Assembly: GCF_003269295.1 (NCBI RefSeq)
Contig: NZ_QLTT01000014.1
Location: 1-64,000 of the forward strand
Direction of reading: 5' to 3'
From: Lentzea atacamensis
Lineage (GTDB): Bacteria; Actinomycetota; Actinomycetes; Mycobacteriales; Pseudonocardiaceae
DNA: 64,000 bases
This document shows positions 20,531 to 48,387 of this stretch, one piece after another; position 1 is the first letter of the stretch; every line of letters begins with the position of its first letter. The notes beneath the pieces are model-generated. The model was not told the DNA's origin. It did no database searches and saw only the letters and a program-made list of their open reading frames with translations. Position numbers and translations under genes: made by a program.

Positions 20531-21610
20531 TCAGCCGCGAGGAGGAGAAGCGAGAACGCGACCGAATGCGTGCTCCCAGACGGGCAGCACCTGCGTGTAG
20601 TCGCTAGCGCCAGCGAGCTCCCTCGCCGCCTGCGCCATCTGTATCAGCCGGGCCGGCTCCGCTCGCAACGCGGTGATTTTCTCCACGAAGGTCTGGGCCA
20701 CGTCGGCGTCTGCCGGGTCTCCCTCGATCAGGCAGCCTGTGACGCCGTCGATGACTCGGTCCGGTAGCGCCCCGGTCGGCGAGCAGACGATCACTGCGCC
20801 GGCAGCAGCGGCCTCCATGGCCGCGATGCAGCAGGTTTCTGGGGATGTCGTTGGGTACAGGTAGAACTGTGCCGTCAGCTGGAGCTTGATGAGATCGGGT
20901 TTTGCTACGCGGCCCAGATAGTGCACGCCGATGGGTGCCATCGCTTTTGCGCGGTCGTACAGCGCGCCTGCCCGGAGCAGGTCTTCCTCGGGTGTGATGC
21001 CGCGCAGCAGGTGACTTGACGCGACGAACAGCTCGGAGTCCGGATGCGCATCGTGGATGGCGGGCCACATGTCCAACAGCTGTTCCAGGCCACGTTTCGG
21101 GTTGGCGGCGTACAGAAACCGGCCTTCGACCTTAGGCTGCGGGTCGGCGTAGTCCGCTGTGTCGAGACCGTCTGGTGTGACAACCCATTCGGCATCGTGT
21201 GGGTAGCCGTGTTCGGTGACATAGAGGTTGCGGTGAAAGTCGGAGACGGCGATGACAAGGTTGATGTCGCCCGCGCGGACCTCACCGATGAGACTGTCGT
21301 TGGGTTTCCTCAGTCCCAGTTTCACCGCTCGGACCGGCGAGTTGAACCGGCCCGGTTCCATCCTCTTGGTCCGCACCCAGAAAATGATCACGTCGCGGTA
21401 GTGGTCCTTGCCCAGTTCCGTGAGGGGCAGCCACCGGACGCCGCGATCGTCCACGCGGGGGCAGTCGGCGTATACCCGCACCTCGTGACCTCGCGAAGCA
21501 AGGCCGCGAGCGAGCACGACCATGCTCGTCTCGTTGCCGCCCAAGCCTTTCGTGGCCAGGTCGGACGGCTGTACGGGGAAATATCCTGGGTGCACGAGGT
21601 CGATCTTCAT
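20531..21610 (-). CDS. GT4-type glycosyltransferase
   Basis: A 359-residue GT-B glycosyltransferase. Start ATG 21610 (MKIDLVHPGYFPVQPSDLAT) has GAGGAG just upstream. The N-terminal Rossmann domain begins with a Gly-rich loop (KGLGGNETSMVVLARGLASRGHEVRVYAD) typical of nucleotide-sugar GT4 enzymes; the C-terminal domain has GRFLYAANPKRGLEQLLDMW and the SPETCCIAAMEAAAAGAVIVCSP segment, equivalent to the E-x7-E donor-binding motif. It is the third gene of a leftward unit (regulator, kinase, glycosyltransferase) divergent from the deazaguanine operon and likely adds a sugar to that locus' product. Acceptor and donor cannot be read from sequence. Confidence 0.85.
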   Translation of the reverse strand: MKIDLVHPGYFPVQPSDLATKGLGGNETSMVVLARGLASRGHEVRVYADCPRVDDRGVRWLPLTELGKDHYRDVIIFWVRTKRMEPGRFNSPVRAVKLGLRKPNDSLIGEVRAGDINLVIAVSDFHRNLYVTEHGYPHDAEWVVTPDGLDTADYADPQPKVEGRFLYAANPKRGLEQLLDMWPAIHDAHPDSELFVASSHLLRGITPEEDLLRAGALYDRAKAMAPIGVHYLGRVAKPDLIKLQLTAQFYLYPTTSPETCCIAAMEAAAAGAVIVCSPTGALPDRVIDGVTGCLIEGDPADADVAQTFVEKITALRAEPARLIQMAQAARELAGASDYTQVLPVWEHAFGRVLASPPRG

Positions 21611-21740
21611 GAGGCTCCTCGGCTGGACCGTCGAACGCGAGATCCCGCAGGCGCTGAGCGTGATGTCGAGCGGAAACGCCCTCTGCCACGGCGGAAGGAC
21701 AGGGACGAGGGAGTGAGGCGGCGGCCAGGAGCCCGGTTCC

Positions 21741-22580
21741 TCACGCAGAACCCACCGTGGTCTGGATGTTCGGTTCTGGCGTTCTCTGGGACGCGATCCA
21801 GTGTCCCGAGCCGGGATCGCTGCCTGCGTCAAAGATCAGCATTGCGGGGTGGCAGTGGGGTAGGTCGACCCTGATCACCGTGTCGTGGGCGGGTTCGGCG
21901 CCGCGGAAGGCGAGTTGGGCAGCCGCTCGGGCGTGGTCGAAAGGCGTGGGTGCGATGAGGGCGAGCACGGCGGGGTGCCTGCGAACGTCGTCTGCGGGAA
22001 GTCGGACGTGCTGGCCGGCTTGATCGGTTACCAGCACCCATCGGTCCTGGGCTGCGGGATCCGGTAGTTCGTGGCGGAACTGTACGGTCGGCAGCGTCTC
22101 CGCGTCGACGACGTGGACCGCGTGAAAGCCTTCGTCGGCGACGGTGGTGAGCGTGTCGGCCATGCGCGCGGCGTTGGTCTGCAGGACGTCGTCTCCGATG
22201 ATCCTCAGCCGGGCCGTGGTTCGGGCCTGGCAGCGTTGCAGCGGGAGGTCGAGCAGCACGGCGACGGCCGGCACGTTGTGCGTTCTGGCGAGGTCGAGCA
22301 GTTCGCTCCTGTCCTGTCGACGCAGGTTGGTCGCGTCGATCACGGTGGTGACGGCGTTGTCCAGCCGTGCCCGCGCCATGTCGAGCAGGAGGTCACGAGC
22401 GCGGCGGCTGTTGGTTCGGCTGGCGGGGTCGTTGCACAGGCGGGTGCGGAACTCGTCGCTGGACAGGATCTCGGCGGGGGCGAAGTGGCGGCGGGCCAAG
22501 GTGCTTTTGCCGCTGCCCTGCACGCCGATCAGCACCACGAGGGCAGGGGTCGGCAGGTCGATCACGGTCGTGTTGGTCAT
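21741..22580 (-). CDS. Pnkp-type polynucleotide/nucleoside kinase
   Basis: A 279-residue P-loop kinase. The first 165 residues match the kinase module of bacterial Pnkp and related enzymes: Walker A GVQGSGKSTLARRHF, the acceptor segment ILSSDEFRTRLCNDP, the strand TTVIDATNLRRQDR and the lid RCQARTTARLRI. The C-terminal ~110 residues (DRWVLVTDQAGQHVRLPADD...) are a separate beta-rich part of unknown role; the phosphatase and ligase domains of full Pnkp are absent. It lies 9 bp after the XRE regulator and 130 bp before the glycosyltransferase. The likely reaction is 5'-hydroxyl phosphorylation of a nucleoside or small polynucleotide. Confidence 0.75.
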   Translation of the reverse strand: MTNTTVIDLPTPALVVLIGVQGSGKSTLARRHFAPAEILSSDEFRTRLCNDPASRTNSRRARDLLLDMARARLDNAVTTVIDATNLRRQDRSELLDLARTHNVPAVAVLLDLPLQRCQARTTARLRIIGDDVLQTNAARMADTLTTVADEGFHAVHVVDAETLPTVQFRHELPDPAAQDRWVLVTDQAGQHVRLPADDVRRHPAVLALIAPTPFDHARAAAQLAFRGAEPAHDTVIRVDLPHCHPAMLIFDAGSDPGSGHWIASQRTPEPNIQTTVGSA

Positions 22581-22589
22581 GCGGGAGTC

Positions 22590-23984
22590 CTAGGCGGCCA
22601 GTTCGGTGCGCACACGGTGTTCGAGGTGTCGTACTGCCGGTTCGTACTTCCAGCGGGCGAGGCGGAGGCGCACCTGGTCGAGGTATTCGCGCGTACGGGC
22701 TGATCGGATACAGGTCAGCGCGGTCACGACGTGGTGCGTGTGGTGCAGGGCTCGGTCGAGGTCGGGATTGCGGCCTTGCAGGTGGCAGGTGGCGATCACG
22801 GCTTCACGCAGGGCGTGGGAGCGGCCGAAGGCGTCGATGGGCGCGTTGGCGAGGCTGTTCCAGGTCAGGGCCTCGATCGGTTTTCCCAGGTCGCGGTGGA
22901 TCTCGACGGCGTCGGCGGCGAGTCGGTTGTGGTCGAAGAAGTCGATCCAGGCGGGGTCGTCGCCGGTGTGGTGTTCGGCGGTGTCCAGCAGCAGTTCGGA
23001 GCGGCTGAGCGCGGCGGCCGCGGCGCGGCTGTTGCCGGCACGGGCCCACACGCGAGCCTCGATGAGCTTGTGGAAGGCACGGACTCGCCGGGAGGCGTGG
23101 TGCTGGGTGCGGTGGTAGGCGGCGTCGACCATGTCGGCGGCGTCGGAGTGAAAGCCACGCAGCGATGCCTGCAAGGCCATGCAGGACACGACATAGCCGC
23201 CGAGCGGGAGGTCGCCGGCGGCGCGGGCCAGGCGCAGCGCTTGGATGTAGTGGCGCTGGGCCAGTGCCTGGTCCCCGTTGTCGAACGCGGTCCATCCGGC
23301 CAGGCGCGCCAGTTGCGCGGTTGCGGAGAACAACCTGCGGCCGGTGGCGTCGTCGTAGCTGCCGTGCAGCAGCGGTGCCGCGCGTTCTTTGAGGCATGCG
23401 GTGATCGCCGATGTTCGCCAGTGCCCGCCCCCGTAGCGGGAGTCCCAGCGGCGCGCGTCCTCGGCGGCGGCGACCAGCTCGTCGACGTCACTGTGCCCGA
23501 CCCTGCGGAACGCCTCGGGAGAGCAGGAGTTGGCGCGGGGGTCGGCTGGCAGTGTCAGCCAGCGCCGCAGCGGCACGATGTAGGCGCCGACGGCCATCGC
23601 GGAGCCGGTGAGGAAGGTGCGGCGGTCCACGCGACTCCACAGGCGAGTAGCGACCTGGACTGCCACGGGAAGTTCGCGCGGGAAGTCCAGGCCGATGGAC
23701 GATTCCGGGGAATCGTCGGCTTCCAGGCCGATCTCCCGCAAGGTCACCGGCCTGCCGAGCCGCTCTGCCAGGACCTGGGCGATGAGCGGCCGGATCTCCG
23801 GCTGGGGGTTGTGGCCGCGGGTAATCCAGTTCGCCCAGCTCGTGTGGGTGTAGCGGGTGTGCAGTCCCGCTGTGGTGGCCAGTTCGTTGAGCCGGTGGGC
23901 CAAGGAGGCTCGTGAGGCCTCTGTTGTGGCGACCACGCGTTCCAGGTCGGGGTTGGCGGGTTTCGACGGTTTCGTCGCGGACAT
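22590..23984 (-). CDS. XRE-type regulator with TPR-like domain
   Basis: A 464-residue regulator. The N-terminal ~90 residues form a lambda-type helix-turn-helix (RASLAHRLNELATTAGLHTR, YTHTSWANWITRGHNPQPE). After a linker with RRTFLTGSAMAVGA, which resembles the twin-Arg-like stretch common in this actinobacterial family and need not be exported, the rest is all-helical repeats (ARLAGWTAFDNGDQALAQRH, ALQASLRGFHSDAADMVDAA, RAAAAALSRSELLLDTAEHH) like TPRs. Start ATG 23984 has GAGGTGAGG. It is divergent from the QueD gene and probably controls both directions through the repeat at 24039-24059. Confidence 0.8.
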   Translation of the reverse strand: MSATKPSKPANPDLERVVATTEASRASLAHRLNELATTAGLHTRYTHTSWANWITRGHNPQPEIRPLIAQVLAERLGRPVTLREIGLEADDSPESSIGLDFPRELPVAVQVATRLWSRVDRRTFLTGSAMAVGAYIVPLRRWLTLPADPRANSCSPEAFRRVGHSDVDELVAAAEDARRWDSRYGGGHWRTSAITACLKERAAPLLHGSYDDATGRRLFSATAQLARLAGWTAFDNGDQALAQRHYIQALRLARAAGDLPLGGYVVSCMALQASLRGFHSDAADMVDAAYHRTQHHASRRVRAFHKLIEARVWARAGNSRAAAAALSRSELLLDTAEHHTGDDPAWIDFFDHNRLAADAVEIHRDLGKPIEALTWNSLANAPIDAFGRSHALREAVIATCHLQGRNPDLDRALHHTHHVVTALTCIRSARTREYLDQVRLRLARWKYEPAVRHLEHRVRTELAA

Positions 23985-24038
23985 GACCTCACCTCGTGAC
24001 CAGCGTGCACGATCACCCGGCAGCTGTGCACGTACCGA

Positions 24039-24059
24039 CACAGGTTGTCACCCCCTGTG
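24039..24059. promoter_or_regulatory. Inverted repeat CACAGG-N9-CCTGTG in divergent promoter
   Basis: The repeat sits between the XRE regulator (start 23984) and the QueD-like gene (start 24142) at CACAGG 24039-24044 and CCTGTG 24054-24059. A second motif, GTGCACG, occurs twice just left (about 24005 and 24026). These are reasonable operators for the XRE protein. Confidence 0.45.
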
Positions 24060-24141
24060 ATCCGTGAGCCCCCTCGTGAGCCCTCCCCAGCCGTGCCGCG
24101 GCCCGCTTTCATGAGATTCGGAACCGAACCTGGAGGTGGGG

Positions 24142-24885
24142 GTGGCACAGCACGACGCCCAGCGAGGCGGATACCGCATCGGCGACCGCGGGTTCGCCTT
24201 CGCCGCAGCGCATCGCGCGCCGTGCGGCCCGTCAGCGGGCCAGGTGCACGGGCATACGTTCACCGTCGAGGTCGAGCTGGTCGCGCCGATGCTGCAGGCA
24301 CCGGGGTTCGTGGTGGACTTCGCGGAGCTGGCCCCGGTCGGCGAGTACCTGCGCAGCACGCTGGACCACCGCGACCTGGACGAGGTCCTGCCGTCGGTGG
24401 GCAACACCGATGGCATCGCCGACCATCTGTCTGGCTGGATCGGCGCGCACATGCCCGGACCGGTGGCTGCCTCGTTGGACGCCGTGCGCGTGGTCACCGG
24501 CGATCCGGCTGTGCTCGACGCCGGGGTGGCGCATCGGGTGCGGTTCGAGGCCGCGCACAGGCTCCACGGGCTTCCCGACGGGCACAAGTGCGCGCGCCTG
24601 CACGGCCACTCCTACATGGTCGATCTGCGGCTGCACCCGGACACCGGGACGGTCGTGCGGCAGCGCCTGAGCGCGCTGGTGGCGGAGTTCATCGGCGAAC
24701 GTTGGGACTACCAGCTGCTCAACGACGTCGTCCCGGTCGCACCCACGTCCGAGCTGCTGGCACGCGAGCTGCACGAGCAGCTCGCGGTCCTCGCCGGCCA
24801 GGGCGATGCCGCTGCGCTCGCCGGGGTCCGGGTGTGGGAGTCGCCGCGCCGGTGGGCCGAGTACACCCCTGGCGCGGTGCGATGA
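24142..24885 (+). CDS. queD: Fused two-domain QueD-like 6-carboxytetrahydropterin synthase
   Basis: A 247-residue protein made of two PTPS/QueD domains; single QueD enzymes are about 120-140 residues. Domain 1 (about 10-105) has the zinc His pattern FAAAHRAP and HGHTF and the Asp-His pair in TLDHRDLDE, but no Cys at the catalytic position before HGH. Domain 2 (about 130-247) has FEAAHRL, the catalytic Cys in KCARLHGHSY and the C-terminal Glu in VWESPRRWAEY, but WDY where LDH is expected. The two halves thus hold complementary parts of one active site. GTG 24142 is preferred to GTG 24136 because GGAGG is then correctly placed. The reaction is 7,8-dihydroneopterin triphosphate to 6-carboxytetrahydropterin in preQ0 synthesis. 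First gene of the 15-gene operon. Confidence 0.85.
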   Translation: MAQHDAQRGGYRIGDRGFAFAAAHRAPCGPSAGQVHGHTFTVEVELVAPMLQAPGFVVDFAELAPVGEYLRSTLDHRDLDEVLPSVGNTDGIADHLSGWIGAHMPGPVAASLDAVRVVTGDPAVLDAGVAHRVRFEAAHRLHGLPDGHKCARLHGHSYMVDLRLHPDTGTVVRQRLSALVAEFIGERWDYQLLNDVVPVAPTSELLARELHEQLAVLAGQGDAAALAGVRVWESPRRWAEYTPGAVR

Positions 24886-25583
24886 GCCGGGACACGTTGC
24901 TGGTGTCGGAGTTCTTCGGCCCGACCTTCCAGGGCGAGGGAACCTCCTTGGGGCGCCGCGCCTTGTTCATCCGGCTGATGCGCTGCAACCTGACCTGCCG
25001 CGACTGCGACACCGCCTATACCTGGGACGCCACACGCTACGACCTGGCCTCGAAGACCCAGGAGCTTGCTGTCGAGGACCTGCTGGCATGGGCGTTGAGC
25101 AGGGCCGAGGCGCTGGTGGTGATCACCGGTGGCGAACCGCTGATCCAGCAGACCCGGCTGCTGCCGTTGGTACGCGGCCTGGTGGAGGCCGGGCGGCGCG
25201 TGGAGGTGGAGACCAACGGGACCATCGCGCCTCGATTCGGGCTGGAGTCGCTGGTCTCGCAGTTCACTGTCTCACCGAAGCTGACGCGGTTCGGGGCCGG
25301 GATGCCGCTGGCGACACGCATCAAACCCGCGGTGCTGCAGGCGTTCACTGCGACCGGCCGGGCGGTGTTCAAGTTCGTCGTCTCCGGCCCGGACGAGCTC
25401 GACGAGATCGCCGCGTTGGCTCAGGCACACGAGCTGGCGCCGGTGTACGTCATGCCGGCGGGCACGACCGCCGACCAGGTGCTCGCGGGTGCCGCCGCGC
25501 TGGCGGACCCGGCACTGCGGCGAGGTTTTCACCTGACCACCCGGCTGCATGTGCTGCTGTGGGGTGATTGCCCTGGCCGCTGA
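24882..25583 (+). CDS. queE: 7-carboxy-7-deazaguanine synthase QueE
   Basis: A 233-residue radical SAM enzyme that converts 6-carboxytetrahydropterin to 7-carboxy-7-deazaguanine. The N-terminus carries the family signature SEFFGPTFQGEGTSLGRRAL, then the cluster-binding CX3CX2C in RCNLTCRDCDTAYTWD, the Gly-rich SAM segment VVITGGEPLIQ and VEVETNGTIAP. Length is normal for QueE. ATG 24882 overlaps the QueD stop as ATGA. The C-terminus overlaps the next gene. The presence of QueD, QueE and a QueC-like gene in one operon makes a preQ0 pathway the natural reading. Confidence 0.93.
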   Translation: MSRDTLLVSEFFGPTFQGEGTSLGRRALFIRLMRCNLTCRDCDTAYTWDATRYDLASKTQELAVEDLLAWALSRAEALVVITGGEPLIQQTRLLPLVRGLVEAGRRVEVETNGTIAPRFGLESLVSQFTVSPKLTRFGAGMPLATRIKPAVLQAFTATGRAVFKFVVSGPDELDEIAALAQAHELAPVYVMPAGTTADQVLAGAAALADPALRRGFHLTTRLHVLLWGDCPGR

Positions 25584-26352
25584 GACGCATGTCGGCGCTG
25601 GGTTCGCCCCGCCGCCTGTGATCGGCCTGGATCGCGGCGTGCTGATCACGGTGGAAGGCGTGTGGGGAGCGGGCAAGACCACCGCCGCGTCCGACTTGGG
25701 ACGACGGCTGACCGCCGCGGGGTTCTCGACGGCGGTGCTGCATTACGGCCCGCTGGACGAGGTGACGGGCAGGCTGGCCGAGCTGCTGGACTCGCGGCCG
25801 TTGCGCGCGCGGTCCGGGCTGGGCGGCTACCGCCTGCCTCACCACGCGACGGTCGACGTGCTGGCGCGTCTGGCGCGGGAGGCGTTCCACCACCGCCACA
25901 CCTACGCGGCCGCGCTGGCCGGCCACGACGTCGTCGTGGTCGACCACGGCGTGTACTCCAAGATCGCCTACGCGGTGACGGTCCTGGGCGAACAGCACCC
26001 GCACGAACAGGTCCAGGAGCTGCTCGACCGGGTTCGCGCTGTAGTCGACCCGTGGTTCCTGCACCCGGACCTGGCCGTGTGGCTGGACGTTCCCTGGCCG
26101 TTGGCGCGCGAACGCGCCATCGCCCGCGGCCACGGTGGCGGCACCCCCGGTTCGGTGGAACGGCTGGTGTTCCTGCCGCGCTACGCCGCCGCCTACCGCC
26201 TGGTCGCCGCGACCTACTCCGGCCGTGTCCGCCGCATCCTGGCCGCCGCTCGGTGCCCGCCGTGCGTGCACACCGACGTCGCCGCCCACGTCGCTGCCCT
26301 GCTGCGCACCGATCTTCCGGCCGGGCCGCAACCCGCGTGTTCCTGCCCCTGA
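25564..26352 (+). CDS. Thymidylate-kinase-like P-loop kinase
   Basis: A nucleoside-monophosphate-kinase-fold protein. Walker A is EGVWGAGKTTAASDLGRRL near the N-terminus; the usual DRY motif is altered to VVVDHGVYSKIAYAV; a lid-like basic segment follows (WPLARERAIARGHGGG). The start is uncertain: GTG 25564 lies inside the QueE end, while GTG 25639 (VLITVEGVWGAGKTT) would match the usual length of about 235 residues. It could phosphorylate a nucleotide built from the deazapurine base, or be a general nucleotide kinase recruited to the pathway. Another member of the same fold occurs at 34102. Confidence 0.75.
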   Translation: MIALAAETHVGAGFAPPPVIGLDRGVLITVEGVWGAGKTTAASDLGRRLTAAGFSTAVLHYGPLDEVTGRLAELLDSRPLRARSGLGGYRLPHHATVDVLARLAREAFHHRHTYAAALAGHDVVVVDHGVYSKIAYAVTVLGEQHPHEQVQELLDRVRAVVDPWFLHPDLAVWLDVPWPLARERAIARGHGGGTPGSVERLVFLPRYAAAYRLVAATYSGRVRRILAAARCPPCVHTDVAAHVAALLRTDLPAGPQPACSCP

Positions 26353-26387
26353 TGCTGCTGCCCTTGACCTCCTGGAGTCACACGACC

Positions 26388-27137
26388 ATGACCGTGTCCG
26401 AGATCCTGCTGTTCTCCGCTGGGCTGGACAGCTTCCCCGCCTGGGAAGTGCTGGGCCGGCCGCCGTGCCTGTATCTGGATCTCGGGCACCGCTACGCCGC
26501 CCAGGAACGGGCCGCGATCGCCGATCTGGTCGAGGCCTGCGGCATGGACGTCGAGATCAGTGACGAGCTGCAGTTGGGCCGGTGGGAACAGCCCGACGCG
26601 ATCATTCCGCTGCGCAACGCGCACCTGGCGATGCTGGCTGCCCAGCGCGCCGACACCGTGTGGTGCGTCGGGGTCAAGGGCGACAACACCCTGGACAAGA
26701 GCCCCGCCGCGTTCACCGAGATGTCGAGGTTCATCAGCGGTCTGACCGGCCGCGCCGTGCGGGTGGACAGCCCGTTCTGGTCCCAGACCAAGACCGAGAT
26801 CGTCGCGGGCTACCTCACCGCGGGCCTGCCCGCCGAGCACCTGCTACTGACCTTCTCCTGCGCCCGCGACGACGGCGCCCGCACCCACTGCGGCACCTGC
26901 TCCAGCTGCCTGCGCCGCTGGATCAGCCTGGTCAACAACGGGGTGCAGGCCCCCTTCGACGCCCCGCCATGGCGCTGGTCGCGGGTGGCCGACTACTACG
27001 TCGACGCGATGACCTCCGGCCGCTACCCGGCTCACCGCGCCGAGGAGTTCTTCACCGCGCTGGCCACCGTCGGCCACCCCGCCGCCCGCGCCCACCCTGC
27101 CGCCCGCGCCCACTCCGCCGCCGAGGAGGTCCGATGA
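26388..27137 (+). CDS. queC: QueC-like PP-loop 7-cyano-7-deazaguanine synthase
   Basis: A 249-residue ATP-PPase of the QueC/ExsB fold. The PP-loop reads LLFSAGLDSFPAWEVLG, where classical QueC has SGGLDS; the Ala for Gly is unusual. The middle has IIPLRNAHLAMLAAQRADTV, and the C-terminal zinc site is complete (CARDDGARTHCGTCSSCLRR), as in QueC. Expected reaction: 7-carboxy-7-deazaguanine plus ammonia to preQ0, using two ATP. The sequence differs from standard QueC outside these motifs, so a related ligase on another acceptor is possible. The C-terminal tail is Ala/His-rich repeats (HPAARAHPAARAHSAAEE). The stop overlaps the next ATG. Confidence 0.8.
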   Translation: MTVSEILLFSAGLDSFPAWEVLGRPPCLYLDLGHRYAAQERAAIADLVEACGMDVEISDELQLGRWEQPDAIIPLRNAHLAMLAAQRADTVWCVGVKGDNTLDKSPAAFTEMSRFISGLTGRAVRVDSPFWSQTKTEIVAGYLTAGLPAEHLLLTFSCARDDGARTHCGTCSSCLRRWISLVNNGVQAPFDAPPWRWSRVADYYVDAMTSGRYPAHRAEEFFTALATVGHPAARAHPAARAHSAAEEVR

Positions 27138-27589
27138 CCATCGCCTACATCGCCGCACCACTGTTCAACGACGCCGAGAAGGCCTTCAACCTGCTCGTCG
27201 ACGCCGCCCTGCGCGAGATCGGCCTGGACACCTGGCTGCCGCAACGCGACGGCGGAGAAGCCGCACCCCTGGTGCGCCAAGGCCTCAACGAGAACACCGT
27301 CCGAACGCGACTGTTCGAAATGGACTGCGACGCCATCCGCCGCTGCGGGGTGTTCGTGTTCGTGCTCGACGGACGGGTGCCCGACGAAGGCGGCTGCGTC
27401 GAGCTGGGCATGGCCTACGCCCGCGGCGTGCCCTGCTTCGGGCTGCAGACCGACTCCCGCCGCTTCGGCGGCACCGACTCCAACAACCTGATGATCGACT
27501 ACGCGCTCACCGGAGGCACCGCCCGCTCCATCCCGGAGCTGGCCGAGCTCGTGCGCGCACACCTGGAAGGAGCTCAACGATGCCGCTAG
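27134..27589 (+). CDS. Nucleoside 2-deoxyribosyltransferase family
   Basis: A 151-residue protein of the PF05014 type. The start MTIAYIAAPLFNDAEKAFNL gives the first strand and loop of the fold; LFEMDCDAIRRCGVFVFVLDG and the catalytic Glu in GGCVELGMAYARGVPCFGLQ follow at the usual spacing. ATG 27134 overlaps the QueC stop. Enzymes of this family cleave or exchange the N-glycosidic bond of 2'-deoxyribonucleosides or hydrolyse nucleotides. Directly behind the preQ0 genes, it could swap or remove a base to place the deazapurine on a (deoxy)ribose; that role is inference. Confidence 0.85.
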   Translation: MTIAYIAAPLFNDAEKAFNLLVDAALREIGLDTWLPQRDGGEAAPLVRQGLNENTVRTRLFEMDCDAIRRCGVFVFVLDGRVPDEGGCVELGMAYARGVPCFGLQTDSRRFGGTDSNNLMIDYALTGGTARSIPELAELVRAHLEGAQRCR

Positions 27590-28512: not shown

Positions 28513-29203
28513 CACCTTCCCCGCCCAGGGCCTCGGGGTGGAGGTGTCGTTGTGGTCAGCGGACCTCGGCGCCCTGTCGACCGAGGTCGAGCGCCTCGGC
28601 CCGCTCGCCGACGTCTTCCACCTCGATGCCTCCGACACCCGGATGGTCCCCGACGCGCTGTTGTTCCCCGACCTGCTCGCCGCGATCCGCCCGCACACCC
28701 GCATCCCGATCCACGTGCACCTGATGGCAGAGCGAGCGACCCACCTGACCGAAGCGTTCGTGCGCGCGGGCGCGGACCTGATCACCCTGCACAGCACCGC
28801 CGACGACCTCGACGAGGCGCTGGACACGGCCCGCGAGCTCGGCGCGGCCACCGGCCTCGCGCTCACCCTGGACACACCTGTCGAAGTGTTGTCGGACTAC
28901 GCCGACAACACCGACGCGGTGCTGATGGTCGGCACCCCCTTGGGCACCAAGGGCACCGGCATGGACCCTGCCGCGCCCGCCCGTATCCGCGCCGCCCGCG
29001 CCCTGCTGGCCGCCGCCGGACGCGCGGAGATCCCGGTGATCGCCGACGGAGGCATCCGCGCCGACACCGTGCCCGCGCTGGCCGCCGCCGGCGCGCACGC
29101 CGTGGTCGCAGGGTCGCTGTTGCTGGGCGCCGACGACCCGGCCACCGCCACGGCGTGGCTGCGCACCCACGCGCCGATGAGCCCGTCGATGGACCAGTCG
29201 TGA
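28496..29203 (+). CDS. Ribulose-phosphate 3-epimerase family
   Basis: A 235-residue (beta/alpha)8 protein with the ribulose-5-phosphate 3-epimerase pattern: VFHLDASDTRMVPDALLFP (His/Asp of site 1), IPIHVHLMAERATHL (His of site 2) and IPVIADGGIRADTVPALAAAG with the catalytic Asp. The phosphate-loop region reads MVGTPLGTKGTGMDPAAPAR instead of the usual NPGFGGQ, so substrate range may differ. Its start overlaps the isomerase gene by 17 bases and its stop overlaps the next GTG. It probably equilibrates a pentulose phosphate or analogue for sugar assembly in this operon. Confidence 0.83.
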   Translation: MPWSADTFPAQGLGVEVSLWSADLGALSTEVERLGPLADVFHLDASDTRMVPDALLFPDLLAAIRPHTRIPIHVHLMAERATHLTEAFVRAGADLITLHSTADDLDEALDTARELGAATGLALTLDTPVEVLSDYADNTDAVLMVGTPLGTKGTGMDPAAPARIRAARALLAAAGRAEIPVIADGGIRADTVPALAAAGAHAVVAGSLLLGADDPATATAWLRTHAPMSPSMDQS

Positions 29204-29982
29204 CCGGGCCTACGGCGGCGCTTCCGCTGCACGGCTGGGTCGTCAGCGTCGACCTGTGGGGAACGCTGATCACCTACGGCGACCGCAACGCCGAGGCCGA
29301 GTGGCGGCTGCGTGAGTTCGAAACGGTCCTCACCGCATTCGGGCACGACGTGGGCCCCGATCGCCTGCGCGAGGCTGTTCTCGCCGTGCGCGACGACACC
29401 CGCGCACGCCAACGGGACACCGGCGAACAGCCCCCGGTCCGTGACCAGGTCATGGAGATGCTCACGGCGCTCAACCTGGGTTCACTGGACCCGGTCCATG
29501 AACAGCGGCTGGTCGACACCCTGCTCATCCCGCACACCCACGCCGTGCAACGCGCCTGCCCCGAGGTGTTTCCCGGCGCGTTGACCGCACTGTGGGAGCT
29601 GCGTCAAGCCGGAGCCCGGCTGGTGCTCACGTCCAACACCCTCGCCACCCCGGCCTCGGTGTCACGGCTGATCATGGAAGAGCGGGGCCTGTTGTCGGTG
29701 TTCGACGACACCGTCTTCTCCAGCGACATCGGCATCGCCAAACCGCGTCGTGAGATCTTCGCCGCCGTCGCCTCCCGCAGCCAGGTTCCGCTGCAGCGCG
29801 TGGTGCACGTGGGCAACAGCCCCACCACCGACATCGCCGGCGCACTCAACGCAGGATGCCGCGCGGTGCTGCTCACCCACCGCGACAAGCGCTGCGACCA
29901 CGACGTCCCGGTCATCACGGCGCTCGACCAGTTGCCCGCCGCCATCCTCGCCCTCTGCGCCGCCGCACCAGGAGCAGCATGA
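29200..29982 (+). CDS. HAD-superfamily hydrolase
   Basis: A 260-residue HAD enzyme. Motif I is VSVDLWGTLITYGD (nucleophile Asp; the following DxWGT resembles the DxYGT form of haloacid-dehalogenase-like members), motif II LVLTSNTLATPAS, motif III KPRREIF and motif IV VVHVGNSPTTDIAGALNAG. A helical cap of about 100 residues lies between motifs I and II. GTG 29200 overlaps the epimerase stop; its own stop overlaps the next ATG. In this setting it most likely removes phosphate from a sugar or nucleotide intermediate. Confidence 0.85.
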   Translation: MTGPTAALPLHGWVVSVDLWGTLITYGDRNAEAEWRLREFETVLTAFGHDVGPDRLREAVLAVRDDTRARQRDTGEQPPVRDQVMEMLTALNLGSLDPVHEQRLVDTLLIPHTHAVQRACPEVFPGALTALWELRQAGARLVLTSNTLATPASVSRLIMEERGLLSVFDDTVFSSDIGIAKPRREIFAAVASRSQVPLQRVVHVGNSPTTDIAGALNAGCRAVLLTHRDKRCDHDVPVITALDQLPAAILALCAAAPGAA

Positions 29983-30794
29983 CCGCCATCCTCCCCGCCA
30001 CCGAGCCCGCGGCCGCCACCACGCTGCTGACCCACGCCCTCACAAAGCCAAGTGAGACCCGCAGCCTGCGAGACCTCGTGACCGCCGTCGACGCCGGCGC
30101 GGCATGGCTGGCCGATCCCGCAGCGGCTCGCGCGGCGCTGCACGACGGGCACAACCCGCCGCTCTACCACGCGTGGCGCGACGTGGTGCCCGCCCGCACC
30201 ACCCCGGCGGCAGACGGACCGGTGCGCTGGCACGCCGACCTGGTCCTCTACCCCGGGGCGGTGCCGGCGCCGGGCACGGCCGAACCGCCGCGCTCGATCG
30301 GGCACTGGAACACGCGCACCCAGGTCGAGGTGTTCCAGGTCCTGACCGGGCGTGTGCTGATGCTCCACACCAACCTCGTCGACGGCACCCCGGTCCTGGC
30401 TTGGCGCTCCTGCGGCCCGGGCGAGCACGTGCACGTGCCGCCTGGAGCCTGGCACCTCACCGTCGCCGAACACGCCCCCGCCGCGGTGTTCAACATCTAC
30501 ACCGGCGCCGAACCGCCCGGCACCGCAACGCCAGCGGAGCTGCCCAAGTACCACCGTGCCGCGCCGCCCCGCCTCGGCGTCACCATCACCGGCGACCAGC
30601 TCAGCCTCGCCACCGACCCCTCGCACCCGTCCACGTGGCCGGTCCAGCACCTCAGCGCGTCCCCCGACTGGGCGGCGCCGCTGACCGACCCGCACGGGCT
30701 GGCCACCCTGTACCTCGAGTGCGACGACACAGCTCTGTCCGCGCTGCACGACCAGACCCTCCGTCACAGCGACCACACGGCATGGGAGCGATGA
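29979..30794 (+). CDS. Cupin-domain protein, phosphoglucose-isomerase-like
   Basis: A 271-residue protein with a C-terminal cupin. Metal-binding positions are suggested by SIGHWNTRTQVEVFQVLTGR and PGEHVHVPPGAWHLTV, the two cupin motifs with His and Glu residues, followed by AVFNIYTGA. The arrangement recalls archaeal-type cupin phosphoglucose isomerases. The N-terminal ~75 residues are helical. It is coupled on both sides by ATGA overlaps. A sugar-phosphate isomerase or epimerase role is the simplest reading. Confidence 0.7.
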   Translation: MTAILPATEPAAATTLLTHALTKPSETRSLRDLVTAVDAGAAWLADPAAARAALHDGHNPPLYHAWRDVVPARTTPAADGPVRWHADLVLYPGAVPAPGTAEPPRSIGHWNTRTQVEVFQVLTGRVLMLHTNLVDGTPVLAWRSCGPGEHVHVPPGAWHLTVAEHAPAAVFNIYTGAEPPGTATPAELPKYHRAAPPRLGVTITGDQLSLATDPSHPSTWPVQHLSASPDWAAPLTDPHGLATLYLECDDTALSALHDQTLRHSDHTAWER

Positions 30795-31906
30795 CCGCGG
30801 CGGCGTTGCACGCTCGGCTGATCACCCACGGCGCACCGGCAGGCCACGTCGGACACCTCGCGCACGGGCCAGCGCGACTGACCCTGCGCGCCGATACGCC
30901 CGCGGTGATCCCGGCAGTGACGGCAGCGCTGCACGCGTACCTGCCCACCGCGTCCGGGGCCGGCTGGACGCTGACAGTCCGGACCACCGCGCGGATCGAC
31001 ACTGACCTCGCCGCAGCGGTGTGCACCGGCGCCGCCGTGGACGTCGGCCCCGCCCAGCTCGCCCACCCGTGCACGCTGCCCGCCGCGGCGCTGTGGTGGC
31101 TGCCCCAGCCCCGAATCCTGGTCTACCGCGACAACGAGCGCCGCGAGGTCACCCTGACCGGCCACCCCGAACCCGTCCGGCCGTGGGCTGCCCGCCTGGC
31201 CCGACAACTGGTCACCGCCCAGCTCGTCGACGCCGGCGCAGTGCACGCTCACGCCGCGGCCTTCGCCCATCGCGGCGGCGGCGTGCTGATCGCCGGGCTC
31301 GCCGGGGCGGGCAAAACCACCTGTCTGCTGGCGGGACTGCGCGCCACCGACGGCCACTTCGTCGCCAACGACCGCGTCCTGCTCCTGCCCGACTCCACCG
31401 GCCTGACCGCCTACGCCTGGCCCGCACCACTGCGAGCCGCGCCAGGCACCCTGCGCGCGGTCGACGGCCTCGACGTGTTCACGCATGCCCGCGGCGAGCA
31501 GGAGAAGACCGACATCGACCCCGCCCTCCTGGCCGGCCGCGTCGGCAGCGGAATCACGGGCAGCACCTGCCCGCGGCTGATGCTGTGGCCGGCACGCACC
31601 CGCAACCCGCATCAGCCCGAGGCCGTCCCCGCCGATGAAGTCCGCGCCACCCTGGCGAACACGCGGCTGTTCCTGCATGACCCGGACACCGGCCGCAGCT
31701 CCCACCTCAACCACTGGCTCGTACCACTACCCGACTTCGCCGCCCTCGACCAGGCCCGCGACACCGTCATCGGTCTACTCGCCGCCCTGCCCTGCGTGCG
31801 CATCGCCGTCACCGACGACATTGACCAACTCATCCGCGACCTGAACACCGTCCTCACCACCGTTCGCAGCGCCGCCACCACCCCCGTCCCTCGGGAACAG
31901 CCATGA
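30791..31906 (+). CDS. HPr-kinase-like P-loop protein
   Basis: A 371-residue protein. After about 150 residues of beta-rich N-terminal domain, a P-loop domain shows AHAAAFAHRGGGVLIAGLAG then AGKTTCLLAGLR (Walker A GLAGAGKTT), followed by HFVANDRVLLLP, the Asp-containing strand that characterises HPr kinase/phosphorylase-type kinases. Similar HprK-related kinases occur in peptide-modification and exopolysaccharide loci, often beside a nucleotidyltransferase, which is exactly the next gene here. Its substrate is not evident; candidates are a sugar, a small molecule or a Ser residue of a carrier. Confidence 0.75.
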   Translation: MTAAALHARLITHGAPAGHVGHLAHGPARLTLRADTPAVIPAVTAALHAYLPTASGAGWTLTVRTTARIDTDLAAAVCTGAAVDVGPAQLAHPCTLPAAALWWLPQPRILVYRDNERREVTLTGHPEPVRPWAARLARQLVTAQLVDAGAVHAHAAAFAHRGGGVLIAGLAGAGKTTCLLAGLRATDGHFVANDRVLLLPDSTGLTAYAWPAPLRAAPGTLRAVDGLDVFTHARGEQEKTDIDPALLAGRVGSGITGSTCPRLMLWPARTRNPHQPEAVPADEVRATLANTRLFLHDPDTGRSSHLNHWLVPLPDFAALDQARDTVIGLLAALPCVRIAVTDDIDQLIRDLNTVLTTVRSAATTPVPREQP

Positions 31907-32754
31907 CCGTTCGGCACACCACGGATTTCGATCCCGACGCCCCAGGCTGGGCCGTGCTGCGGGCGTTGTGCTCGCTGCCTGGCCCGCATCCGGACCTCAC
32001 GGCCGCGCTGTCGGGTGGCGCCGCGCTCGGTGAGGCGCTGGCCGCGTGCGTGTTGTCCAAGACCTTGTGCCTACTGGCAGGCCACTATCGCGTGTACCCG
32101 GTGTCGACAGTGCCGAGGGCGCTGGCCGCGTTCCTGACGCGCACCCTGCGCGCCAACCAGCACAAGCACCGCCTCTACCGCCGTGAGGCCGCCGCGCTGA
32201 CTTCCGCACTACGCGAGGAGCGGGCCCGCGTCGCGGTGCTCGGCGGGATCGCGACCGATCTCACCGTCCACAGCGGACTCGGCGTCCGCGAGTTCGGCGA
32301 CCTCGACCTGCTGCTCGATCGCGATCACCATGACGCCGCGGCCGCGGTGCTCACCGCGTTCGGCTACCAGCCCGGCACTGGCGGATCAACGTGGACCCGC
32401 GCCACCGGCGACCCGGTGACCACGCTGTTCGTCGTCGACCTGCACACCACCGAGCGGTCCGGACTCAGCGACACCGCCCTCGACCGCATCACCACGGCCG
32501 TGGTGCCCGAGCAGGAGCTGGTGATGCCGGTACTTGCGCCTGGTGACGCGTTAGCCGCCAGCCTGCACCGGCTCAGCCACGGCGATCGCCTGCGGTGGCC
32601 GGTGGTCGCCGACGCGCTGCGCCAGCACCACACGCTCCCGGCAACCGCACCCCACCCAGTGAGCCTGGACGCCACGGCGGCCGACGCCTGGACCTGGCTG
32701 CGCACGGGCTGGCCAGACCTGCCCGCGTATCCCCGCGCCGGGGCTCAGCGATGA
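31903..32754 (+). CDS. NTP_transf_5-type nucleotidyltransferase
   Basis: A 283-residue protein with the fold of the uncharacterised nucleotidyltransferase family PF14907. The central motif is VAVLGGIATDLTVHSGLGVR, then EFGDLDLLLDRDHHDAAAAV, matching the family's G-G-x-D and D-x-D catalytic signature, and a third acidic strand TLFVVDLHTTE. N- and C-terminal parts are helical. Coupled to the HprK-like gene by ATGA overlap. It may adenylylate or otherwise nucleotidylate a sugar or small molecule made in the operon; the pairing with an HprK-like kinase is known from other loci but the chemistry is not settled. Confidence 0.75.
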   Translation: MTVRHTTDFDPDAPGWAVLRALCSLPGPHPDLTAALSGGAALGEALAACVLSKTLCLLAGHYRVYPVSTVPRALAAFLTRTLRANQHKHRLYRREAAALTSALREERARVAVLGGIATDLTVHSGLGVREFGDLDLLLDRDHHDAAAAVLTAFGYQPGTGGSTWTRATGDPVTTLFVVDLHTTERSGLSDTALDRITTAVVPEQELVMPVLAPGDALAASLHRLSHGDRLRWPVVADALRQHHTLPATAPHPVSLDATAADAWTWLRTGWPDLPAYPRAGAQR

Positions 32755-33302
32755 TCGTCGCGTTCGCCGGGCTGCCCGGCACCGGCAAGAGCACCCTCGC
32801 CCGCGCCCTGGCCGGCCACCTGGCCGGTAGCCCGGTGATGCTGCTGGACAAGGACACCGAGCGCTACCACCTGTTCGGCGACACCCTGACCACCTACGAC
32901 CGCGAGCAGGACGACTTCGTGGTCGACCTGCTCTACCGGGCCGCGGCGTGGCAGCTACGCCGCGACCCGGCCACAACCGTGATCCTCGACGGCCGCACCT
33001 ACAGCCGCGCCTACCAGGTCACCCAGCTCCACGCCCTGGCCGCCGAGCTCGCGCAGCCGCTGGTCATCGTCGAATGCGTGTGCGCCCCCGCCACGGCGCT
33101 CACCCGGCTACACCGCGATCACACCGCCGCCAGCCACCCGGCAGCCGACCGCACACCCGACCTGCACCACCGGCTGCGGGCCGACGCCGACCCCATCAGC
33201 ACCCCCACGCTCGTCCTCGACACCGACGCTCCCGCCGAGCACACCCTGTCGCGCCTGCTCACCCACCTCACCAGCGCCCTGAACACCCAGGAGACGTCGT
33301 GA
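32751..33302 (+). CDS. P-loop kinase (AAA_33 / zeta-like)
   Basis: A 183-residue kinase that starts MIVAFAGLPGTGKSTLARAL (Walker A) and continues with VMLLDKDTERYHLFGD, TTVILDGRTYSRAYQVTQLH and VECVCAPATALTRLHRD. The size and motifs match small-molecule kinases such as gluconate-kinase-like or zeta-type sugar-nucleotide kinases. ATG 32751 overlaps the preceding stop; its stop overlaps GTG 33299. It is the third kinase-fold protein in the operon. Confidence 0.78.
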   Translation: MIVAFAGLPGTGKSTLARALAGHLAGSPVMLLDKDTERYHLFGDTLTTYDREQDDFVVDLLYRAAAWQLRRDPATTVILDGRTYSRAYQVTQLHALAAELAQPLVIVECVCAPATALTRLHRDHTAASHPAADRTPDLHHRLRADADPISTPTLVLDTDAPAEHTLSRLLTHLTSALNTQETS

Positions 33303-34108
33303 CCACCGAACTGGAGCACCTGCTCACCACCGCCCACCACGCCGTCGACCACGCCGAACAGCTGCTGCGCGGACACCCGCCCACCACCGTCCACGCCAAA
33401 GGCGACCGCGACATGGCCACCGACACCGACGTCGCCATCGAACGTGCCGTCCGCGCTCGGCTTGCCCACGAGACCCCTGCAATCCCGGTCCACGGCGAGG
33501 AGGAAGGCGGCGCCACGGCCGGCACGCGCTGGGAGCTCGACCCCATCGACGGCACCGCCAACCACCTACGCGGGCTGCCCTTGACCGGCATCAGCCTCGC
33601 CCTGATCCGCGAGCAGATCCCCATCCTCGGCGTCATCAGCCTGCCGCTGCTCCGCACCCGCCATTGGGCACTGGCCGGACACGGCGCGTTCTGCGATGGC
33701 CAGCCCATCACCGCGTCCCCCACCACCGACCTCGCCCAGGCACTGATCGCTGTCGGCGACTACGGCACCGGACCCGACGCGGGACCCCGCAACACCATCG
33801 CTCACGCGGTACACCAGCACCTCGCTCCCCGCGCCCAACGCATCCGCATGTTCGGCTCCGCCGCCGTGGATCTCGCCTGGCTCGCCGCCGGCCACCTCGA
33901 CGCCTCCATCACGCTTGGCAACCGCGCCTGGGACATGGCAGCCGGCGCGGTCATCGCACGCGAAGCAGGCGCACACGTCGTCGACCACGACGGAACCGAC
34001 CACACCACCGCATCCCGGTTCACGATCGCCACCGCACCCGGACTGCTCACCGCCGTCCTCGACACCCTCCACGCCGCCCTCGACGATGCCCGGACCTCAC
34101 TGTGCTGA
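33299..34108 (+). CDS. Inositol-monophosphatase-family phosphatase
   Basis: A 269-residue IMPase/FIG-family phosphatase with complete catalytic motifs: IPVHGEEEGG (metal Glu), WELDPIDGTANHLRGLPLTG (Asp cluster) and NRAWDMAAGAVIAREAGAHV (catalytic Asp). Likely dephosphorylates a sugar phosphate, inositol phosphate or 3'-phosphoadenosine-type nucleotide, with Mg2+. GTG 33299 overlaps the kinase stop. A degenerate relative occurs at 48388; this copy looks fully active. Confidence 0.88.
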   Translation: MTTELEHLLTTAHHAVDHAEQLLRGHPPTTVHAKGDRDMATDTDVAIERAVRARLAHETPAIPVHGEEEGGATAGTRWELDPIDGTANHLRGLPLTGISLALIREQIPILGVISLPLLRTRHWALAGHGAFCDGQPITASPTTDLAQALIAVGDYGTGPDAGPRNTIAHAVHQHLAPRAQRIRMFGSAAVDLAWLAAGHLDASITLGNRAWDMAAGAVIAREAGAHVVDHDGTDHTTASRFTIATAPGLLTAVLDTLHAALDDARTSLC

Positions 34109-34809
34109 TCACGTTCGAGGGACTGCCGGGCGCCGGGAAGACCACCCAGACCCGCCTGCTCGCCGACTGCCTGCGCCGTCAGGGCCGCACCGTGGTCACA
34201 CTCGACGATCTCGCCACACTCGACACCGACCCGGTCGCCGCCGACCTCGTTGCGGTCCTGGCCACCGCGGGTGACCCGTACTTGCGGGGCAGCGACCCGG
34301 TCGTGGACACCCTGCTCACCGCCGCCATCCGCGCAGACCTCGTCGCCACCGTCCTGGCCACCGCCCTCGACGCCGCAGGACCCGACGGCATCGTGATCGA
34401 GGACCGCGGCGAGAACACCATGTCCTCCTACGCCCTCGCCGGGCTGCTGCACCGCACCCGCACCAGCCCCGACGCCGCCCTGCAGTGGCTGACCGCGCTC
34501 ACCGGCCTCACCGGACGCCTCCCTGGCCGGGTGCTCTGGCTGCGCACCCCTGTCGATATCGCCACGCGACGCACCGCCCGACGCGGCCCGGACCGGCAGA
34601 CCACCGCCGAACACCGCGCGTACCTCAACCGCGTCGACCACGCCTACGAGCGGCTCGCCGCAGGCAACCCCGACCTTGACCAGGTGCACGGCGGTAACCA
34701 CGAGCCCGCACACGTCCACAAGCTCGTGCACCACGCCCTTGACCTGCCCGACAACCACTGCCCGCACTCAGGCGGCGACCTCCCACACCCGCCCGGCACA
34801 GCCTCCTAG
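34102..34809 (+). CDS. Second thymidylate-kinase-like protein
   Basis: A 235-residue nucleoside-monophosphate-kinase-fold protein: VLITFEGLPGAGKTTQTRLL gives Walker A at the very N-terminus, IVIEDRGENTMSSYALAGLL is the DR-G version of the DRY/SxxAY motif, and RRTARRGPDRQTTAEHRAYL is the lid. GTG 34102 overlaps the IMPase end. With the gene at 25564 it makes two such kinases in one operon, consistent with stepwise nucleotide phosphorylation. The C-terminal 30 residues are low-complexity. Confidence 0.78.
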   Translation: MLITFEGLPGAGKTTQTRLLADCLRRQGRTVVTLDDLATLDTDPVAADLVAVLATAGDPYLRGSDPVVDTLLTAAIRADLVATVLATALDAAGPDGIVIEDRGENTMSSYALAGLLHRTRTSPDAALQWLTALTGLTGRLPGRVLWLRTPVDIATRRTARRGPDRQTTAEHRAYLNRVDHAYERLAAGNPDLDQVHGGNHEPAHVHKLVHHALDLPDNHCPHSGGDLPHPPGTAS

Positions 34810-34860
34810 ACTGAGCCCACGCCGCCGCGTCCGATCACCCTTCCAGGAGAGCCCACCACC

Positions 34861-35778
34861 ATGACGAACGTCGTCAGCGCCACCCGGCCCATCCCCGGCG
34901 ACCTGCTGGCCGACGTACGCGCGGCTCGCCACGGCGACCCCGACAAACTCGCCGCCGTCCTCGAGTCTTGGGAACTGGAGGCCCTGACCGGCGGCCGCAA
35001 CAACGACGTGTTCACCTGGAACGGCACCTGCATCAAGCTCTACCGCAAGACCGACCGCAACCGCGTCGAACGAGAATGGCACGGCCTGAACCACGTCGCT
35101 GACCTGGGCATCGCGCCCCGGCCGCTGTGGCTCGACGAGCATCCCGACGAACCAGCACTCGGCATGACCTTGGTGCCGGGCACTCCTGCCGACGAGAACG
35201 CCTTTCCCCTTGCCGCGCTTAGGGATCTGGCCCGCGCCACCCGCGCGATGCAGGACCTTCCACTCACTGAACCGCTCGCGGCGTGGCCACGCGTCGACTC
35301 CATCACCCACTACATCGCGCGCCTCACCGATGTCTGGCCCGGCCAGCTCGCCGAATCCGACAACGACGAGTACACCGCGCAGATGCTGGCATTGCTGCAG
35401 CGCTGGCGCGCCAGCAACGACGCCGATCTACTCGCCCAGCCCGCGCCCAAAGTGTTCAGCCGCGGTGACGCCAATCTGCTCAACTGGCTGCACCACCGCA
35501 CCGATCTGTACGTAGTGGACTTCGAGTTCGCTGGTTTCAGCGATCCTGCCGTCGACGCCGCCGACCACATCGAGCACATCAGCGCCCACCACATCCCCGA
35601 CACAGCGTGGCTCGCCCTCACCGACCAGCTCGGCATCGACCACCGCAACCGCGCCCGCTTCGACGCAGCACGCCGCACAACCGCTCTGCGATGGCTCGCC
35701 GTGCTGTGGAAGCAACGCGACCGCCGAACAGACGAGTTCATCCGTCAGCTCGACCGGTGCCGTGCCCTCATCGGCTAG
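34861..35778 (+). CDS. APH/ChoK-type phosphotransferase
   Basis: A 305-residue kinase-like fold protein of the aminoglycoside/choline/homoserine kinase group. Motifs are GGRNNDVFTWNGTCIKLYRK (ATP Lys), FSRGDANLLNWLHHRTDLYV (catalytic Asp and Asn; Arg replaces the usual His) and VVDFEFAGFSDPAVDAAD (metal Asp). ATG 34861 is preceded by AGGAGAG and lies 51 bp after the previous gene, so it may be the last gene of the operon or have an additional promoter. It could phosphorylate a sugar intermediate or provide self-protection by phosphorylating the product. Confidence 0.82.
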   Translation: MTNVVSATRPIPGDLLADVRAARHGDPDKLAAVLESWELEALTGGRNNDVFTWNGTCIKLYRKTDRNRVEREWHGLNHVADLGIAPRPLWLDEHPDEPALGMTLVPGTPADENAFPLAALRDLARATRAMQDLPLTEPLAAWPRVDSITHYIARLTDVWPGQLAESDNDEYTAQMLALLQRWRASNDADLLAQPAPKVFSRGDANLLNWLHHRTDLYVVDFEFAGFSDPAVDAADHIEHISAHHIPDTAWLALTDQLGIDHRNRARFDAARRTTALRWLAVLWKQRDRRTDEFIRQLDRCRALIG

Positions 35779-47953: not shown

Positions 47954-48387
47954 GCAGAAGTCCCTGCCCCCCGTGACGTGGTTCATGCAGATACGACAGC
48001 GGTGCCACCACGCGCCGTCGCTTGCGTTTACCTGTGCCTGGTTCTCGGATGTGAGTCGCCGAAGAACCCGGTGGTCACCTTCACACGATGACTACTGCAC
48101 GTCATCGGTCATAGGGCAAAGACGTGCAAAAACAGATCCTGACCTTCGCGTCTTACACGGAGCGTCACGACGGGTCCACGGGCTGTCGATCAAGGGTGGA
48201 CAGCATTTCCGGTGATTGGAACCTTTGCCTCAGGCTGCGATTTCCGGCCATCGGAAGAAATCACACGGGGCCGTTTTCTTCATGTACCTTCTCGGCGTCG
48301 ACTCTCCCCCGAGCACACGACACGCACCACGCGCGGGCCGATGCGGGAACGCATTGCCTCGCCACTCGATACAGGGGGAACCTGATC
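47954..48387. other. Divergent intergenic region
   Basis: The 434 bp between the exported-protein operon and the IMPase-like gene hold no gene. CGATGAC (48086-48092) and GTCATCG (48101-48107) form a 7-bp inverted repeat with an 8-nt spacer, a possible operator. Local AT content rises around 48230-48290, where a promoter for the rightward gene is likely. Confidence 0.4.

Follow-up and report, generated by a model that had tools for sequence, protein, structure and literature searches.

A mobile actinobacterial operon likely to make a 7-deazaguanine nucleoside or nucleotide bearing an extra sugar

The stretch of Lentzea atacamensis DNA analysed here (the window, 64,000 nucleotides, GC 69.5%) comes from a 164 kb contig (NZ_QLTT01000014.1) of a 9.3 Mb genome that is 99.55% complete, and its plus strand carries a set of 15 intact co-directional genes (24136-35778) that includes QueD-, QueE- and QueC-like proteins of the 7-deazaguanine pathways. 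An initial annotation had described a 15-gene deazaguanine set with a divergent regulator unit upstream, and this description stands, with the gene families backed by Pfam and NCBIfam (the cupin apart, see below). The same annotation had called nearly all gene junctions ATGA or GTGA overlaps, which was too strong a wording as eight of the 14 are exact four-base overlaps (six ATGA and two GTGA), 11 overlap overall and at the remaining three, given the chosen starts, the genes lie 34, 35 and 51 bases apart. No RNA element in the window reached Rfam gathering scores and no tRNAs were found.

The operon opens with the QueD-like gene (24136..24885), which belongs to the PTPS family as annotated and turns out to be an internal duplication of two fused domains, PF01242 matching as two stretches. 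It is followed by the QueE-like radical SAM protein (7-carboxy-7-deazaguanine synthase; 24882..25583; NCBIfam TIGR03365), a first thymidylate-kinase-like P-loop protein (TMK1; 25618..26352; PF02223; start uncertain, 25549-25660), the QueC-like protein of a divergent clade (26388..27137; PF06508, 36.6 bits; alternative start 26352) and a nucleoside 2-deoxyribosyltransferase family protein (NDT; 27134..27589; PF05014, 64.7 bits; PDB 7o62 and 7m5h). Next come a xylose-isomerase-like TIM barrel (27580..28512; PF01261; PDB 3qxb and 4k3z), a ribulose-phosphate 3-epimerase-like protein (RPE; 28496..29203; PF00834, 120 bits), for which RPE entries rank first in the PDB and D-allulose-6-phosphate epimerase 11th, a HAD phosphatase (29200..29982; PF00702, 62 bits) and a cupin (29979..30794). 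The set is completed by an HprK-related kinase-like protein (30791..31906; NCBIfam TIGR04355), an NTP_transf_5 nucleotidyltransferase (NTP5; 31903..32754; PF14907, 62 bits), an AAA_33 kinase-like protein (32751..33302; PF13671, 50 bits), an inositol-monophosphatase-family phosphatase (IMPase; 33299..34108; PF00459, 167 bits), a second thymidylate-kinase-like P-loop protein (TMK2; 34102..34809; PF02223, 42 bits) and an APH-family phosphotransferase (34861..35778; PF01636, 56.5 bits).

A search with the QueC-like protein brought in 13 more actinobacterial loci, making 14 together with the window, and six of the 13 are on large plasmids. Four were obtained from a short-pattern scan of genome contigs (a groundwater Actinomycetota metagenome-assembled genome (MAG), a Streptomycetaceae MAG, Micromonospora okii TP-A0468 and Frankia sp. 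AiPa1) and the others lie in genomes G028, G1068 and G1104 and on plasmids of Streptosporangium NBC_01495, Amycolatopsis AA4 and four Streptomyces. Six of the seven cluster-bearing plasmid records are included, H5 being left out as a near copy of S. longwoodensis H4, and G1088 and G682, judged to be identical with the AA4 and Frankia loci, were not counted separately. Gene presence was tabulated by tblastn over an 18-32 kb stretch per locus. QueD, QueE, TMK1, QueC, AAA_33, TMK2 and APH are found at all 14 loci, RPE, HAD, cupin, HprK and NTP5 at 13 and the IMPase at 12. At six of the eight loci with an NDT the full 15 genes are present in the order of the window, and since this holds alongside the seven genes common to every locus, the 15-gene grouping is confirmed as a real unit and no chance assembly. 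The remaining two NDT-type loci are that of Frankia, with 14 genes, and a reduced set of eight in G028, where the base, NDT and kinase genes are kept and the block from the TIM barrel through RPE, HAD, cupin, HprK and NTP5 to the IMPase is missing as a whole from the 32 kb stretch. Overall 12 of the 13 relatives hold 13-15 of the genes, mostly in the same order, so that the linkage expected by the initial annotation held in the synteny comparison. On plasmids, homologues of TMK1 and the HprK-like protein occur in exactly the seven records that bear a gene of the QueC-like clade. The four Streptomyces copies lie close together in the tree and because L024, L025 and L026 are close relatives the 14 loci do not represent 14 independent events.

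The loci fall into two subtypes, NDT being present at eight of the 14 and a phosphoribosyltransferase (PRT) at six, never both and never neither within the stretch compared. The six PRT-type loci form one group in a tree of six concatenated core proteins (support 100/100) and retain 13 of the 15 window genes, 12 of them in order with TMK1 moved, and all six carry FolE, a radical SAM enzyme and a DegT aminotransferase inside the cluster. The four Streptomyces PRT-type loci add an adenylation-thiolation protein, two HAD proteins, a 685-aa protein and a methyltransferase, families assigned on L023, whose PRT is closest to xanthine/guanine PRTs at scores below their cut-offs. The 685-aa protein (L023:11314-13371) lies between a HAD gene and the PRT, has relatives in the four PRT-type Streptomyces plasmid loci and gave no Pfam or NCBIfam match. 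Enzymes of the NDT and PRT families alike take free bases as substrates. As these unrelated proteins, each from a family that forms base-sugar bonds, replace each other, their alternation is the strongest hint at a step in which the base would be attached to a sugar. Such a step has been demonstrated for TubE of tubercidin, a PRT that joins 7-carboxy-7-deazaguanine (CDG) and phosphoribosyl pyrophosphate (as described in the part of PMC6112128 consulted). A further deazaguanine cluster of unusual make-up in Embleya sp. NBC_00888 (L066:5222-15480) contains an NDT 65% identical to that of the window together with a canonical-type QueC, an apparently double QueD, QueE, FolE and DUF6884, PIG-L, WbqC, FGE-sulfatase, GT4, reverse transcriptase-family and 5'-3' exonuclease-family proteins.

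Fused QueD pairs occur at four loci (the window, the groundwater MAG, AA4 and G1068) and their halves have lost complementary active-site residues. Domain 1 keeps LDHRDL and lacks the Cys of C-x3-HGH and the C-terminal Glu in all four, and domain 2 keeps the Cys and Glu in all four and lacks the His of LDH in two, among them the window, where a full residue set exists only with both domains combined. In single-domain relatives the Cys is kept in nine of nine inspected (G1104 left out). Since PTPS active sites lie at subunit interfaces, the window QueD probably has one shared active site per fused pair. The C-x3-C-x2-C motif of QueE is invariant at all 14 loci, and QueD and QueE thus both carry the catalytic motifs of the queuosine/preQ0 pathway enzymes, QueE falling below its equivalog cut-off. 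No match to TGT (PF01702) or QueF was found in the genome with Pfam models at E <= 0.001, and FolE, absent among the 15 genes, is encoded twice elsewhere, for which reasons tRNA queuosine and Dpd-type DNA modification (DpdA being of the TGT family) are both unlikely and ordinary queuosine synthesis, as the initial annotation had argued, does not explain the set. A lone PTPS gene on another contig had no QueE- or QueC-like match at E <= 1e-4 within 19.9 kb around it.

In order to place the QueC-like protein, its 14 clade members were aligned with 20 canonical-type actinobacterial QueC proteins (best PF06508 matches), from which they separate as a group of their own with support 100/100; weak QueC matches in G002 (L013) and G043 (L014) are of the canonical type and were left out of the clade count. 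Libby et al. 2026 (PMC13329287, in the part consulted) report that E. coli QueC depends on residues Y35, R99, Y131 and Y189, all of them essential, and that a Y131F variant retains part of its activity. Only R99 is retained across the 14 members. The position of Y35 is occupied by L, S or I in all of them, the Y (Y131) and P of YPDC are deleted with the C replaced by K, and at Y189 the clade has A, S, L or M with F in three of the 14, as against an aromatic residue at each of the three Tyr positions in 20/20 canonical-type rows. All four zinc-binding Cys are conserved, as is the P-loop Asp, Ala replaces the second Gly of SGGxDS in 13 of the 14 members, and the tail after the last zinc Cys runs to 58-85 residues compared with 10-28 in canonical rows. 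A six-member profile searched against solved structures recovered Cap9 (E 1e-9) and QatC (E 9e-4) and no canonical QueC at E <= 0.001, and the predicted model (predicted local distance difference test, pLDDT, 74.8) is closest to Cap9, then QueC and QatC. With the canonical tyrosines replaced or deleted and the ATP and zinc sites kept, the protein is, judged from these residues, a QueC relative with a rebuilt substrate site.

The cupin of the initial annotation has no Pfam or NCBIfam match and is placed more closely by its predicted model (pLDDT 72.8), which adopts the fold of the archaeal-type, cupin-type phosphoglucose isomerase (PGI), with residues H109, E117 and H159 invariant. As the cupin models as a PGI and sits alongside the TIM barrel and RPE proteins, the three together suggest a sugar-phosphate branch. 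A relative of the cupin on an S. mirabilis plasmid (L065:14899-15723) has a DegT-like aminotransferase about 2.6 kb further on in the opposite strand and no Que-gene match within 30.7 kb. The HprK-like call is supported by a conserved P-loop, the G-x-G-K-T loop and D194/R195 being invariant in 8/8 aligned sequences, and its NCBIfam match falls below the cut-off (46 of 200 bits). The four further kinase-fold proteins originally noted (two thymidylate-kinase-like proteins, the AAA_33 kinase and APH) are borne out by Pfam, and the EDRG motif of TMK2 is invariant at 14/14 loci. TMK2 and APH are a single fused protein of about 570 aa in Amycolatopsis AA4 (L022:21930-23645) and G1068, a fusion which suggests that they act together.

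Members of the QueC-like clade (E <= 1e-20) are very patchily distributed. The L. atacamensis genome is the only one of 24 in its genus to carry one, and counting it each time we found at least 5 of 397 genomes of the order, at least 2 of 394 of the class and at least 1 of 396 of the phylum, counts that may be low as only seven candidates were scored for each in the genomes listed. In the Frankia family set the figure is 1 of 35. The M. okii copy adjoins a phage-integrase-family gene. Patchy spread together with plasmid copies points to horizontal transfer of the operon, and the operon family is real, rare, mobile and not an ordinary queuosine pathway. A phage or virus origin was rejected, a scan of viral contigs having given 28 pattern stretches and no relatives, and seven of 50,697 phage records having matched at 26-32% identity.

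Upstream of the operon lies a divergent unit of three minus-strand genes. The nearest encodes an NsdA-family TPR-type regulator (22590..24041; NCBIfam NF053720, 384 bits, above the cut-off of 75) with a relative at 11 of the 13 other loci, divergently oriented in some and not in all. Beyond it are a PNK-kinase-like AAA_33 P-loop protein (21741..22580; AAA_33, 103 bits; NCBIfam bacter_Pnkp, 145 bits, short of its cut-off of 750), with homologues by tblastn in three relatives, and a GT4-family glycosyltransferase (20531..21610; Pfam Glyco_trans_1_4/Glycos_transf_1; start chosen at the Met of MKIDLVHPGY), homologues of which adjoin three other clusters by tblastn (M. okii, Streptosporangium and G1104) with a fragment in Frankia. 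The unit is adjoined by a DNA polymerase III alpha-type protein of 1105 aa (17025-20342), and the window also holds a second IMPase-family protein (48124-49266) and a cytochrome P450 (55033-56235).

We consider it likely that the operon moves horizontally and that what it makes is a 7-deazaguanine nucleoside or nucleotide bearing an additional, unusual sugar. The reading of the set as a 7-deazapurine metabolite operon put forward by the initial annotation is thus supported, and that the product is a new metabolite we infer. In the order of reactions we propose, host FolE encoded elsewhere would supply dihydroneopterin triphosphate, and the NDT would add a (deoxy)ribosyl group to the base, a step which, to go by the exclusive alternation, the PRT would perform in the sister subtype. 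The QueC-like enzyme would then use ATP to activate the 7-carboxyl and form an amide, nitrile or other amine conjugate from a substrate presumably other than plain CDG plus ammonia, and our guess is that it forms an amide with a different amine. TMK1, TMK2, AAA_33 and perhaps APH may phosphorylate the nucleoside. From their families and the predicted cupin fold, three sugar enzymes (TIM isomerase, RPE-like epimerase, PGI-like cupin) could act with the HAD and IMPase phosphatases to yield a rearranged sugar phosphate, which the HprK-like kinase and NTP5 might attach via phosphate, the weakest step, for which PsmK/PsmN serve as the analogy. Control of the operon probably falls to the NsdA-family protein.

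Several observations weigh against this reading. The operon is known here from its sequence and from predicted structures, and the QueE score is below the equivalog cut-off (87 vs 206 bits). In the cupin N111 occupies what we take to be the place of a metal-binding His of PGI, so its activity may differ from that of PGI. The Frankia locus gave no IMPase match by tblastn and has TMK2 and APH inverted. No transporter is present among the 15 genes, ABC transporter genes lying near three of the six plasmid loci in an unsystematic comparison of the flanks. Some of the genes are not private to the cluster on plasmids, AAA_33 occurring in 14 records, APH in 12, NDT in 10 and the cupin in eight, of which seven, seven, two and seven respectively bear the cluster. 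Relatives of AAA_33 (39-42% identical) are also found in stretches that lack Que genes, next to a regulator of XRE/HTH type and a gene annotated as APH, and for this reason AAA_33 at least may be regulatory and perhaps not biosynthetic. This trio is seen on Streptomyces and Embleya plasmids (L027:6793-10546 and L028:5363-8603), its APH-annotated members fall outside the plasmid match set of the operon's APH, and a general kinase-regulator module is possible.

One alternative is a disguised toyocamycin-like pathway in which the QueC-like protein still makes preQ0, the NDT turns it into a simple nucleoside antibiotic, and self-resistance and activation account for the kinase and phosphatase genes. 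The co-occurrence of QueD, QueE and a QueC relative with zinc and ATP sites kept would fit, as would the close NDT relative beside a canonical-type QueC in Embleya. We nevertheless regard this as unlikely given that the whole clade lacks the three tyrosines on which canonical QueC depends (Phe in place of Y189 in three members), that neither the sugar branch nor HprK/NTP5 has an obvious role in such a pathway and that for none of the 15 genes is a GMP-reductase-like or UbiD family the best match.

A second alternative is a role in defence or stress, with NDT and the kinases producing a modified (deoxy)nucleotide that, like the products of viperin, acts as a poison of phage replication. It would account for the patchy, partly plasmid-borne distribution and the kinase-rich content, and PADLOC returned a QueC match of 50 bits. 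We find it quite improbable: PADLOC gave no full system for the 10 proteins submitted to it, out of 18 in the operon and divergent unit, with matches other than QueC-type weaker, no sensor or effector was recognised by Pfam or NCBIfam among the 18 genes, and small-molecule tailoring is a better fit both for the sugar-phosphate branch and for the amino acid-activating protein of the Streptomyces subtype. That the deazaguanine ends in DNA or RNA or on a protein is suggested by Cap9 and QatC, the closest solved relatives by profile, which join deazaguanine to proteins. This we hold to be very improbable in a genome without a TGT/DpdA-family match, with no partner protein recognised among the conserved genes and with NDT and PRT, whose families use free bases.

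Returning to the sugar-modified deazaguanine product, a bolder extension that we offer tentatively, and think rather doubtful, is that the QueC-like clade performs a third type of QueC reaction. It would couple an amine other than ammonia to the 7-carboxyl group of a nucleoside or nucleotide of deazaguanine, as Cap9 and QatC do with proteins but within a small-molecule pathway, giving phosphate-linked sugar or amino acid conjugates, with the PRT-type Streptomyces loci (adenylation-thiolation protein, radical SAM, DegT) as an aminoacyl or amino-sugar branch. We found no description of the operon in the open-access PMC literature (subscription papers and preprint servers being outside this scope), which in the parts consulted names no product for any of the 14 loci.

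Comparison with known systems, drawn from the parts of the published accounts consulted, agrees with the mismatch to toyocamycin and Dpd content noted in the initial annotation, the gene content also differing from that of huimycin. Tubercidin, toyocamycin and sangivamycin clusters share a QueD-/QueE-type route from GTP to CDG followed by base glycosylation (PMC6112128). In the window an NDT replaces the PRT, the 15 genes include none of the GMP-reductase-like, UbiD or Nudix kind, the GMP-reductase-like family (ToyE/TubD) being the best family of none, and a sugar-isomerase block, the HprK/NTP5 pair, four kinases and a different QueC are added. FolE and PRT inside the cluster, as in toyocamycin and tubercidin, are absent from the 15 and present at the six PRT-type loci. 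The huimycin cluster of Kutzneria albida likewise combines preQ0-type genes with a glycosyltransferase and a regulator but has seven genes, among them an S-adenosylmethionine methyltransferase and a ToyM homologue, and no sugar/kinase block (PMC7439116). QueC-family cluster 4 (Libby et al. 2026, PMC13329287) also has a QueC-like protein adjoining an NDT; its members are found mainly in Proteobacteria, have PfkB-NDT as the neighbour and carry the motif YGQ(x)6E and a different Cys motif, and no deazaguanine-making or sugar genes are described for it, whereas the window NDT is a protein of 151 aa matching NDT families only. Cap9 and QatC are close to the QueC-like protein in structure, but a Qat or CBASS identity was set aside as no partner genes of Qat or type IV CBASS (QatA/B/D; CD-NTase, Cap10) were recognised by Pfam or NCBIfam among the 18 genes, QatB having no Pfam model. 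In angustmycin (psicofuranine) an AlsE-like epimerase presumably provides the unusual sugar phosphate from which a purine nucleoside is built, there on an adenine base and with no deazaguanine genes, PGI-like cupin or HprK/NTP5 described (PMC12648386). PsmK and PsmN of pseudomycoidin, a kinase and a nucleotidyltransferase-family protein, put a hexose on a new phosphate of a lasso peptide (PMC9266682), a use set aside for HprK/NTP5 as no precursor gene was noticed, without a dedicated search, in an operon whose genes overlap or nearly abut. If our reading is true, the operon represents a mobile deazaguanine pathway family distinct from the toyocamycin, tubercidin and huimycin types, with a QueC relative of rebuilt active site and two interchangeable routes of sugar attachment, offering defined targets for new nucleoside compounds and making non-canonical QueC chemistry directly testable.

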